Shown here one piece after another: positions 8,711-26,681 of a stretch of 46,278 bases of DNA; position 1 is the stretch's first letter, and each line of letters starts with the position of its first letter. A program made the translations under genes and the position numbers. This DNA is from a virus, in IMG/VR virus record IMGVR_UViG_3300047564_000767, positions 1 to 46,278 of that record, one strand, 5' to 3'. The notes under the pieces are model-generated. The model was not told the DNA's origin and searched no databases. It saw only the letters and a program-made list of their open reading frames with translations.

Positions 8711-8742
8711 AAAAAAAGGCAGCCGATGAAGCTGCCTTTTTT
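8711..8742. terminator. Bidirectional intrinsic terminator
   Basis: The stem is GGCAGC (8718-8723) with GCTGCC (8731-8736), with an A-tract on the left (8711-8717) and a T-tract on the right (8737-8742). The hairpin therefore has a U-run when transcribed in either direction. It ends the rightward late operon (stop at 8697) and the leftward early transcript just after tRNA-Trp. Confidence 0.9.
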
Positions 8743-8746
8743 GTTT

Positions 8747-8822
8747 TGGCATACCGGGTACGACTCGAACGTACAACCTACGGATTTGGAATCCGTTGCT
8801 CTGCCAATTGAGCTACCAGCAC
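8747..8822 (-). tRNA. tRNA-Trp (CCA anticodon)
   Basis: A complete 76-nt cloverleaf reads on the minus strand. The acceptor GTGCTGG pairs with CCGGTAT (four Watson-Crick and three G-U pairs). The D-stem is GCTC/GAGC, the anticodon stem ACGGA/TCCGT with loop TTCCAAA (anticodon CCA), and the T-stem GTACG/CGTAC with loop TTCGAGT. Discriminator G and an encoded CCA tail are present. The three wobble pairs in the acceptor stem are unusual. It is the last gene of the leftward transcript, just before the terminator. Confidence 0.93.
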
Positions 8823-8829
8823 ACGTAAA

Positions 8830-8900
8830 TGGAAGCGGGGGAAGTACTCGAAACTTCTGCGTAGAGCTTATGAGACTTACGGATACCCTGAATCCCCGCT
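8830..8900 (-). tRNA. tRNA-Met-like element (CAT) with degenerate D-arm
   Basis: On the minus strand the acceptor AGCGGGG (8894-8900) pairs perfectly with CCCCGCT (8834-8840), followed by discriminator T and encoded CCA (8830-8832). The T-arm is perfect: GAAGT, loop TTCGAGT, ACTTC. At the canonical 10-nt distance from the T-stem is loop CTCATAA, giving anticodon CAT. The anticodon stem pairs only in its upper part, unless a C is bulged to give a longer CGTAAGT / GCT(c)TACG stem. The space for the D-arm is about 5 nt short and has no good stem. It may be a non-canonical functional tRNA, a decaying tRNA pseudogene or a tRNA-mimicking processing signal. It lies 7 nt from tRNA-Trp. Confidence 0.6.
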
Positions 8901-8912
8901 GTCAATGTTATA

Positions 8913-9293
8913 TCACATCTTGAATGCTTCTTTCAACTGCGCTGTCGCAGCCTCTACAAGCTTAGGATGACGATACTCATAGATGTCAGGAATCTTCAAC
9001 ACGTGATGTTCCATGTTGTCGAGCAATTCCTTGTGGTCGTAGCAGGCTACTTGGTAGTTACCATCGTCAACAAAGACAACAGCATCAGCCCATTGAAGCT
9101 GCACCTCATCCAACACAATCAAAGCGTATTCACTTGATGTTCCTACAGCACGAGTGTTGAAGTTGAACGGCTCGTTAGACAAGATCCAAGCCAGCGTAGG
9201 ACTACGCAACAACCCAGCTGAACAGACACACAACACTTTCTTGTTGCTGCCTTGATGCGGGTTACGCATGTTATGCAGACGATTGAATGTCAT
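8913..9293 (-). CDS. Low-molecular-weight protein tyrosine phosphatase-like protein
   Basis: A 126-aa protein. A beta strand (KKVLCV) runs into CSAGLLRS, a CX5R phosphate-binding loop with Cys and Arg both present, followed by PTLAWIL. This matches the phosphatase-fold family of small predicted tyrosine phosphatases encoded by phages and bacteria. A general-acid Asp may lie in the late IPDIYEYR segment. Start ATGA overlaps the upstream gene's stop. The substrate is unknown; it could target host phosphoproteins or nucleotides. Confidence 0.7.
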   Translation of the reverse strand: MTFNRLHNMRNPHQGSNKKVLCVCSAGLLRSPTLAWILSNEPFNFNTRAVGTSSEYALIVLDEVQLQWADAVVFVDDGNYQVACYDHKELLDNMEHHVLKIPDIYEYRHPKLVEAATAQLKEAFKM

Positions 9294-14448: not shown

Positions 14449-14615
14449 TCTTCTCCCTCTGTTGGTGTTGCAAGCTTGCCTGCTTCGATAGCATCGGTGA
14501 GGCAGGCGATAAGGGCATAACGAATCAGGAAGTCTTTAGCGTCTGCGTCTAGGTAGACGTTGCAGTCTGCAGATCCATCATCGTTTTCTTTGATGCTTTC
14601 AATTTCTATTTTCAT
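14445..14615 (-). CDS. Small acidic protein, unknown
   Basis: A 56-aa protein (MKIEIESIKENDDGSADCNV...), acidic with a helical middle (AKDFLIRYALIACLTDAIEAG). Its ATG overlaps the ligase stop (TGATG) and its TGA overlaps the next ATG, so it fits perfectly between two coupled genes. No family recognised. Confidence 0.65.
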   Translation of the reverse strand: MKIEIESIKENDDGSADCNVYLDADAKDFLIRYALIACLTDAIEAGKLATPTEGEE

Positions 14616-15505
14616 CAGAACAACTCCGGTTTAAGTTCTTTGATCTTCGCTGTCGTGTAGTGCGACAACACCTTGAAGTCAATCTTTGGATTCTTAAACT
14701 CCTTCACGAAGTTCCAAGTTTCCTCAGTGACTAAGTCGTAGTATACAGTGTGAATCAAACGAGGGATGTATTTGCTGGACCATCCTTCCATTTCATTCGT
14801 GATCTTTGCAACAACCTTGTCCACCAAAGCTTGCGTCACATACTTAGCAACGATCTTCTCTTCAACGATTTCACAGCCCACAACAGGCGCACCCATTGCA
14901 ATGTGATGCTTGGCTTTGAATTCGTTGGTGACAATCTTAGCCCAAGTCTGACGACCATACTTATTCTGGTAGTCGTAGTTCTTGATGACAACACCTTCAC
15001 CACTACCTTCACCGTCCTTCACCAAGTAGTGTGCCTTACTCAGACACTCAGTGAAGTGTTCGATGCTGCCGTTCTTGATGATGGCAATAGGGGCAATGAC
15101 GTTGATACCAGCAGCGATCAAGCCTTCTGAGTATTCGTCATAACTAAGTAGTCGTTCTTTGCTGCGATCAAACACATCGAACACATAGAACTTGCGCCAT
15201 GCATCGTCGTTGTAGGTCTTCAGCGTGTGCGGCACAAGCCATTCACCGTAGAGAACATGTTCGTTGTTCGCCATTATGTACGTTAGTACGGGTACATTGT
15301 CCATCATGGCGTTCATGAAACCAGCATTGTCGTTGTCCGGTGATAGCTCACGGTTGCGACTACCACAGCGCAGTGTGCCAGCCTCATACCAGACACTACC
15401 GTTAGTACCATCTAGCTTAGGGAACACGTAGCATGTCCCCACTTCAATGCCTTCCACTTCGGTGTTACCGTAGCGTTCAAGGTGTTGATATTTGATGAAG
15501 CTCAT
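14615..15505 (-). CDS. RNA ligase family protein (Rnl2-like nucleotidyltransferase)
   Basis: A 296-aa protein with all motifs of ATP-dependent covalent nucleotidyltransferases in order. They are FPKLDGTNGS (motif I, adenylated Lys near residue 31), RNRELS (Ia), LYGEWLVPHTLK (III), KFYVFDVFD (IIIa), EGVVIKNY (IV) and WAKIVTNEF (V). Spacing fits the T4 Rnl2 RNA-ligase group rather than DNA ligases. No DNA ligase or polynucleotide kinase is visible, so it may seal RNA nicks, repair cleaved tRNA, or substitute as a DNA ligase. Coupled by TGATG to the next gene and by ATGA to the HNH gene before it. Confidence 0.85.
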   Translation of the reverse strand: MSFIKYQHLERYGNTEVEGIEVGTCYVFPKLDGTNGSVWYEAGTLRCGSRNRELSPDNDNAGFMNAMMDNVPVLTYIMANNEHVLYGEWLVPHTLKTYNDDAWRKFYVFDVFDRSKERLLSYDEYSEGLIAAGINVIAPIAIIKNGSIEHFTECLSKAHYLVKDGEGSGEGVVIKNYDYQNKYGRQTWAKIVTNEFKAKHHIAMGAPVVGCEIVEEKIVAKYVTQALVDKVVAKITNEMEGWSSKYIPRLIHTVYYDLVTEETWNFVKEFKNPKIDFKVLSHYTTAKIKELKPELF

Positions 15506-25449: not shown

Positions 25450-26556
25450 TTAGTTAAACATTGGTTGCATGTCTCTCATGTCCTGAGCCACTGTCGCAGA
25501 CTTGAGTGTGTGTCTGATGTACGGTGTCAGACTTGATGGTGTTGCATGACCTGTCAATGACATGATGTTAGTGGTTGCTACACCAGCCATCACCATCTCA
25601 GTCACTGCAGTGCGGCGTAGGTCCATAAGCTGTAGCTCATCAGGCAGTTGAGCGTCTTGCATTATAGCTCTGCCAGCCTTTGCCAGTCCTTGCAAACTGT
25701 ATGGCTGTAGTATGCCAGCAACAGATCGTGTCGTAGGGAACACATACTTCTGCCATCCCAACTCATCATACTGTTGCTTCAACATTTGCTGCAGGTCTTT
25801 GGGTAGCGGGATAGATACCCTTGCCCTGCGCTTACTCTGTGTCAACGACAACGTACCTGTCTCAACATCATAGCTATCCCATGTCAGCAGACGCATGTCA
25901 CCTAAGCGCTGTGCTGCACAATAGGCTGTATAAATCAACAGTGCTAAGCTGCGTGTCTCAAACTTGCTGAACGCTACAGTCATGAAAGCTTTGATGTGTT
26001 CACGCTCCCATGTCACACGCCTTGGCTTGCTTGTTTGTTTCTTCACAGCAGTGAAGGGGTTGAAGGTGGTGAAGCCGTTGCGGATGGCATAGCTAAACAG
26101 CAACCTGTACACAGCCAGCACATGACTAGCCAAGCTAATGCTGTGTGCAGCATGCAGGTCATAGATGCGCTGCATAGATGGTGTTGTCAGGTCTTGCAGC
26201 CTGCTGGCATACAGTGTAGTGTGTGTTGCTTTGTCACCTGCCCAGCGCTTGAGGTAGTAGACATAGTCTTCCTTGCTCTTGCTTGACAGCTTGCTGTAGT
26301 CGATGGAGTTGATGTAGCTCTTGACCAGATCCAACACTGTGCTCTTGGTGGTGAGGTGTTTCAGGTAGCGATGTTCCTTGCGCCACTCATCAAGCACATC
26401 GTTCTGTTCGTTGCAATAGTTGATGGCATCGACAAGGTTGGTGCCCAATGCTTTGCGCTTGACGACACCAGCTTCAACAGCATCAGATGGTGGTGCATAC
26501 TTGTAAGAGACTACGCCGTTGCGGTCAACGTGTTGCATGTAACGTGCTAGTTTCAT
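25450..26556 (-). CDS. int: Tyrosine-type integrase/recombinase
   Basis: A 368-aa protein starting MKLARYMQHVD (ATGA overlap with the 42-aa gene). The N-terminal half is SAM-like core-binding (LVKSYINSIDYSKLSSKSKE). The catalytic domain has AAQRLGDMRLLTW (first Arg, about residue 218), LTQSKRRARVSIPL (Lys), MDLRRTAVTEM (HxxR with Met in the His position), LTGHATPSS (His) and TPYIRHT (Tyr, about residue 345). It would integrate or excise the phage chromosome or resolve multimers. No attP can be assigned by eye. It is embedded in the early operon rather than at an att-like edge. Confidence 0.9.
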   Translation of the reverse strand: MKLARYMQHVDRNGVVSYKYAPPSDAVEAGVVKRKALGTNLVDAINYCNEQNDVLDEWRKEHRYLKHLTTKSTVLDLVKSYINSIDYSKLSSKSKEDYVYYLKRWAGDKATHTTLYASRLQDLTTPSMQRIYDLHAAHSISLASHVLAVYRLLFSYAIRNGFTTFNPFTAVKKQTSKPRRVTWEREHIKAFMTVAFSKFETRSLALLIYTAYCAAQRLGDMRLLTWDSYDVETGTLSLTQSKRRARVSIPLPKDLQQMLKQQYDELGWQKYVFPTTRSVAGILQPYSLQGLAKAGRAIMQDAQLPDELQLMDLRRTAVTEMVMAGVATTNIMSLTGHATPSSLTPYIRHTLKSATVAQDMRDMQPMFN

Positions 26557-26681
26557 AGCTTTGCTTTCCCGGTAAGAACCCAAACAATCGGGAACATGAA
26601 CAGTCTGACAAGCCGCCCAAGGACTGACGAGCCACCGCTTGTGTCAAAGTCAATCGTGTATTCTTTTTTGTCGGTCTTCAT
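26553..26681 (-). CDS. Small membrane-anchored peptide
   Basis: A 42-aa protein (MKTDKKEYTIDFDTSGG...) with a C-terminal hydrophobic segment (LFMFPIVWVLTG). Both ends overlap neighbours as ATGA. Its start carries the AACACATGA junction shared by the next four genes upstream. Function unknown. Confidence 0.62.
   Translation of the reverse strand: MKTDKKEYTIDFDTSGGSSVLGRLVRLFMFPIVWVLTGKAKL

Follow-up and report, generated by a model that had tools for sequence, protein, structure and literature searches.

A 71-nt element, encoded CCA included, lies on the minus strand at positions 8830..8900 of the window, the 46,278-bp IMG/VR virus record analyzed here. Conservation of its fold across relatives indicates that it is a real, conserved phage RNA gene, and we give about two chances in three to the reading that it is a functional, tRNA-fMet-like gene in which a 12-nt linker without a stem stands for the D-arm and the anticodon stem has been rebuilt. 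The initiator-type assignment draws on its conservation and fold, its context in tRNA arrays, its CAU identity, its acceptor end, and the fact that tRNA-fMet is its nearest host relative. The short-D family to which it belongs is widespread in the tRNA arrays of aquatic phages and is missed by standard annotation tools.

Read as the reverse complement of 8830-8900, the element is AGCGGGGATTCAGGGTATCCGTAAGTCTCATAAGCTCTACGCAGAAGTTTCGAGTACTTCCCCCGCTTCCA. Its 5' acceptor strand AGCGGGG (8894..8900, minus strand, as for all parts that follow) forms seven of seven pairs with 8834-8840, including A1-U72, G2-C71, C3-G70 and G4-C69, and its 3' end (8830..8840) comprises the acceptor strand CCCCGCU, a discriminator U and CCA. 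The T-arm, GAAGU UUCGAGU ACUUC (8841..8857), has all five stem pairs and the loop UUCGAGU. The acceptor and anticodon stems are 12 nt apart, separated by the D-region AUUCAGGGUAUC (8882..8893), which has no conserved stem. In the anticodon arm (8860..8881), an outer helix CGUA/UACG is followed by a bulged C at 8864, an inner helix AGU/GCU, and the loop CUCAUAA (8868-8874) with the anticodon CAU (8870-8872). The original prediction, made from the letters alone, had described a tRNA-like architecture with no normal D-arm, an irregular lower anticodon stem and a tRNA-Trp gene 7 nt away, all of which we confirm; it had overlooked that the element belongs, on the minus strand, to a conserved phage family and carries an initiator-type acceptor.

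Fold and conservation across phages

The suspicion that standard searches would miss the element proved correct, as neither ARAGORN at its default setting nor the Rfam tRNA model RF00005 calls it; ARAGORN with a relaxed score or in mitochondrial mode reports a tRNA-Met. Default ARAGORN likewise finds none of the 49 family members described below. An independent covariance model, trained only on homologues with a 1:72 type other than the window's A1/U72, scores the element at 91.4 bits (E ~1e-21) against 9.1 bits for the second-best match in the window, and the element is far beyond a chance match. Rfam near-matches in the region (OrzO-P, STnc40, YrlA and others) lie far under their gathering scores and were set aside.

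Viral contigs were searched with two patterns, the first requiring an initiator-type acceptor and a shortened first half, and the second leaving the acceptor free. The latter supplied the family members, at least 49 distinct homologues from IMG/VR phages, each 71 nt long and built like the window copy. Their common features are x-GCGG acceptors, a 12-nt linker of the form A[TG]TCAGGNNANN, an AGY-CUCAUAA-GCU arm with a covarying outer helix, the T-arm, and CCA, which is encoded in 48 of 49; a GG in the D-region, resembling G18 G19, never varies, nor do several further bases. Pattern bias was checked by freeing the acceptor bases and then the anticodon loop. With the loop freed, 27 of the 28 distinct matches listed still have CUCAUAA, the remaining one not being tRNA-like. 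Because the patterns behind the 49 members required the inner AG of the anticodon stem, variation there may be understated.

Within these 49 members, 94.8% of the cells in the acceptor, bulged anticodon and T-stems are paired, and double-change cells number 134, as against 30 in shuffled and at most 17 in slid controls. The covariation remains significant without window-type sequences, and RNAalifold, run unguided, returns the same three-armed fold with no D-stem. Across the family the anticodon stem consists of AGY/GCU, a bulge or internal loop, and the covarying outer helix. Covariation prefers this bulged stem to a canonical 5-bp one, which we rejected because its helix is paired in 68.6% of cells. 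The single-sequence minimum free energy structure of the window copy, a different fold that is 1.4 kcal/mol better, was also rejected because it is poorly conserved among relatives. The conservation and covariation on which the original prediction had staked itself, and for which it proposed a search of related phages, are therefore both present in the homologues found. The element has the covarying acceptor and T-stems, T-loop and CCA expected of a functional tRNA gene, and lacks the D-stem of 3-4 pairs that belongs to a canonical four-arm tRNA. In normal tRNAs, the UC positions of the T-loop pair with G18 and G19; given that the linker keeps its GG and the T-loop its UC, an L-shape is plausible.

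By nucleotide similarity of their flanks the 49 members form nine neighborhood clusters, on contigs of up to a few hundred kb. Most lie inside long same-strand tRNA arrays, some of them mid-array or at an array end, and the neighbors within 400 nt of members comprise 60 on the same strand and none on the opposite one, at a median gap of 8 nt. BLAST of cultured relatives yielded Limnohabitans phage DC31 only, in which a 91.5% identical homologue occupies an unannotated gap between tRNA-Pro and tRNA-Tyr; in Curvibacter P26059A, Nitrincola 1M3-16, MW202701 or OK172329 the family model detected no more than a single 30-bit match. Among 84,980 genomes of bacteria and archaea the pattern has a single occurrence, on a contig (L374) of a Burkholderiaceae MAG that itself looks phage, judging by the T7-type RNA polymerase fragments read from its translations; this polymerase (L374:134-2469) is apparently interrupted by HNH-type ORFs. 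In one array, a phage circularly permuted tmRNA of betaproteobacterial type (L286:129-534; 112.5 bits with RF04321 and 107.8 bits with RF01850) directly adjoins a short-D tRNA, and ARAGORN reports permuted tmRNAs in further arrays (L204, L322, L340, L359, L367, L370 and L371).

Probable initiator identity

The family has an initiator-type acceptor end. Position 1:72 is C.A in 25 members, U-A in 12, A-U in eight, U.U in two, and C.U and A.A in one each (n = 49), so that it is mismatched in 29, A-U or U-A in 20, and G-C in none. G2-C71 and C3-G70 occur in all 49 members, G4-C69 in 48, and A73 in 35; together with a 1:72 position that is never G-C, the three pairs match the transformylase identity set (PMC9976931; PMC7949028). 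Were the element an elongator tRNA-Met, or a tRNA-Ile(CAU) with lysidine modification, that had lost its D-arm, this could explain why the three G-C pairs of the anticodon stem (3GC) are absent, and elongator-type phage CAU tRNAs also carry the CUCAUAA loop. Either would be expected to have a strong G1-C72, however, where the window copy has A1-U72, and 62 of the 64 other CAU tRNAs at the same loci do have G1-C72 or G1.U72. The closest host matches that were checked are also tRNA-fMet, and we hold this explanation to be quite unlikely. At loci L287 and L333 (4774-4850), an apparent second, full-size CAU tRNA with C1.A72 stands beside the short-D gene.

The host comparison comes from 101 Burkholderiaceae genomes, in which the independent model gave, the phage-like contig aside, matches of ~41-50 bits and mostly 77 nt; many fall on tRNA-fMet genes located by pattern, and of five host loci extracted, four read directly as tRNA-fMet. 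The top host matches that were checked, all tRNA-fMet genes, score 43-50 bits. Burkholderiaceae tRNA-fMet shares with the element CAU in CUCAUAA, GCGG/CCGC at acceptor positions 2-5, the T-arm and CCA, and it shares the 1:72 mismatch with the 29 mismatched family members. The host gene differs in its length of 77 nt, full D-arm, GGG/CCC at the 3GC positions and C1.A72, whereas the element has 71 nt with CCA, AGY/GCU plus a bulge, A1-U72 and U73.

Measured against an initiator, the window copy presents a mixed picture. It has CAU in a 7-nt loop and the formylation pairs G2-C71, C3-G70 and G4-C69. In place of the 1:72 mismatch is a weak A1-U72 pair, which together with U73 should favor formylation less than C1.A72 with A73 does. 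Positions 29-31:39-41 hold A29-U41, G30-C40 and U31.G39 rather than three G-C pairs, and with no D-stem there is no purine 11:pyrimidine 24 pair, making the formylation aid from position 11:24 impossible. Wild-type ribosomes select against 3GC mutants, and one review describes these pairs as highly conserved in initiators of all domains. According to it, E. coli initiators mutated in them start translation once the host's own initiator genes have been deleted, or at low levels of formylation (PMC7949028). Lacking the D-arm and the 3GC pairs, and having A1-U72 and U73, the element is not filed as a canonical tRNA-fMet; on sequence grounds it is probably an initiator-type phage tRNA.

Putative promoter, slot and neighboring genes

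Upstream of the element, a -10 box TATAAC extended by TG (8907..8912, minus strand) was read by eye against the consensus, at an 18-nt spacer from a -35 box TTGAAA (8931..8936, minus strand) that is present in most relatives. A stricter scan gave no call for the TATAAC box, which is conserved among relatives, including those that differ in upstream gene or slot content. As six bases separate this box from nucleotide 1, transcription would begin with the element's first base or one adjacent to it. Abutting the -10 box is the stop codon of a gene (8913-9293, minus strand) whose 126-aa product bears a CX5R motif (CSAGLLRS) resembling that of low-molecular-weight phosphotyrosine phosphatases. Downstream, after the 7-nt gap, lies tRNA-Trp (CCA) (8747-8822, minus strand). 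A hairpin with A/T tails (GGCAGC/GCTGCC; 8712..8745, minus strand), noticed by reading the sequence and absent from the output of the pattern scan, is a probable bidirectional terminator between the tRNAs and a convergent 1195-aa ORF.

The slot before tRNA-Trp was surveyed in 44 loci, some overlapping, that carry this tRNA-Trp gene. It holds the short-D element in 27, is empty in 11 and contains tRNA-Asn in six, with a TGATATAAC-type box upstream in 40 of the 44. The element occurs there as only four alleles with at most two differences, as against as many as 14 differing positions in tRNA-Trp. It thus behaves as a tRNA cassette, gained and lost as a unit, that has either spread recently or is under tight constraint; the gain and loss show that it is dispensable.

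These arrangements bear on two further readings, both akin to options of the original prediction. In one, the element serves for processing or punctuation: a 5' end shaped like a tRNA, cleaved by RNase P or RNase E, would shield tRNA-Trp without a part in translation. In the window it is indeed first after the promoter and begins near the inferred transcription start. Sister phages, however, have tRNA-Trp behind an empty slot, elsewhere the element is mid-array or terminal, and a pure RNase P or transcript-end signal leaves the invariant CUCAUAA loop unexplained, CCA too being retained in almost every member; we regard this reading as very unlikely.

The other takes the element for a functionless remnant, either a decayed tRNA gene or an attP relic. 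An integrase in the genome and the incomplete D-arm could be cited in its favor, but the tyrosine integrase (25450-26583, minus strand; PF00589) is ~17 kb from the tRNAs, and no host tRNA gene near-identical to the 3' half, as an attP would require, turned up in 151 Burkholderiaceae genomes. The proposed search for an attB gave only short matches there, ~21 nt at 95% or weaker, and no near-full-length match outside the phage-like contig. Loss of function is also hard to reconcile with strong covariation over 49 full-length homologues in phage tRNA arrays, and with near-identical slot alleles beside a far more variable tRNA-Trp. This account is accordingly extremely improbable, and the attP relic was rejected for want of a substantial match in the sampled host genomes, for its wrong place and for its covarying family. 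Covariation, array context and 1:72 chemistry instead favor the two remaining options of the original prediction, a truncated-D-arm tRNA and an initiator-like one. Tyrosine integrases are rare in the fetched relatives, with seven loci, none of which has a short-D gene.

The window also encodes terminase, portal, DNA polymerase, helicase-primase, ribonucleotide reductase, ThyX and an RNA ligase. Of the cultured phages listed, those infecting Limnohabitans and Curvibacter, two Comamonadaceae genera, have the polymerases nearest to its own; any host assignment for the window phage is an inference. An RNA ligase type known from T4 repairs cut tRNAs, and the window RNA ligase (14615-15505, minus strand; PF09414, phrog_548), which relatives carry too, possibly does the same.

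A proposed role and relation to known tRNAs

If the element is an initiator-type tRNA, it would be transcribed from about nucleotide 1 by its own promoter and processed together with tRNA-Trp. Host MetRS would charge it through CAU, and its weak or mismatched 1:72 position and the G2-C71, C3-G70 and G4-C69 pairs would allow its formylation, after which it would start phage proteins. Without the 3GC pairs its main importance is expected under a shortage of host tRNA-fMet, as might occur where defense toxins such as VapC or AtaT remove that tRNA. VapC cuts anticodon stem-loops of initiator tRNA and AtaT acetylates charged tRNA-fMet (PMC7180214), and the altered anticodon stem and body may also let the element escape both. 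A phage initiator tuned to a low host initiator supply is thus a coherent hypothesis, but we advance this depletion-rescue role only tentatively, as rather less likely than not. The broader proposition, that this is a widespread, overlooked family of phage initiators lacking the D-stem and 3GC pairs, through which phages could begin translation once host tRNA-fMet has been destroyed or has become limiting, seems to us evenly balanced.

The same toxins, which target initiator tRNA (PMC7180214), lend some appeal to a decoy, a stable tRNA-fMet mimic that would absorb anticodon nucleases, acetylating toxins or modification enzymes outside translation. The identity parts, anticodon loop and acceptor end, are kept on a degenerate body, and the phage carries an RNA ligase. 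Encoded CCA in nearly every member, the conserved T-loop and acceptor pairs, and a place among ordinary phage tRNAs nevertheless suggest use in translation, and we consider a decoy unlikely.

Should the initiator reading be right, bacterial viruses would contain a D-stem-less tRNA and a natural initiator that bypasses the 3GC rule. By breaking both rules yet keeping the formylation end, the family would test which initiator parts the bacterial ribosome needs; counts of phage tRNAs by standard tools would miss an initiator-type gene, and claims that phages avoid tRNA-fMet may need revision.

Stemless D-regions occur in animal mitochondrial tRNAs; we know of none in bacteria or phages, nor of any earlier description of miniature-D or D-stem-less phage CAU tRNAs. 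A literature search covering few subscription papers found no D-stem-less phage tRNAs or such initiators. The metazoan mitochondrial tRNA-Ser(AGY) resembles the element in its absent D-stem, and ARAGORN detects the element in mitochondrial mode; unlike metazoan mitochondrial D-armless tRNAs, the element is from a bacterial virus and has CAU, an invariant linker GG and an extended, bulged anticodon arm. Phage tRNA arrays have been proposed to evade anticodon nucleases through anticodon-loop changes, with tRNA-fMet generally avoided (PMC10264068). With those tRNAs the element has in common its array context and changes near the site attacked by initiator-cutting VapC, but its loop is intact, the changes lie in the stem and D-arm, and it is probably of initiator type.

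Also similar are the phage CAU tRNAs matched by the first pattern, at least 84 distinct ones, many with miniature D-arms such as GAAT[CGGT]ATTC and GGCT[TGGT]AGCC; because that pattern selected short first halves, it gives no frequencies of miniature D-arms. Like the window family, they mostly have a mismatched or weak 1:72 position (few strong pairs occur) and a GG in a short D-region, but they retain a short D-stem with a 3-5-nt loop where the window family has none, which suggests a series from normal to absent D-stems. In examples such as those at L203, L206, L209 and L236, stems of 3-5 bp enclose loops of 3-5 nt that hold the GG.
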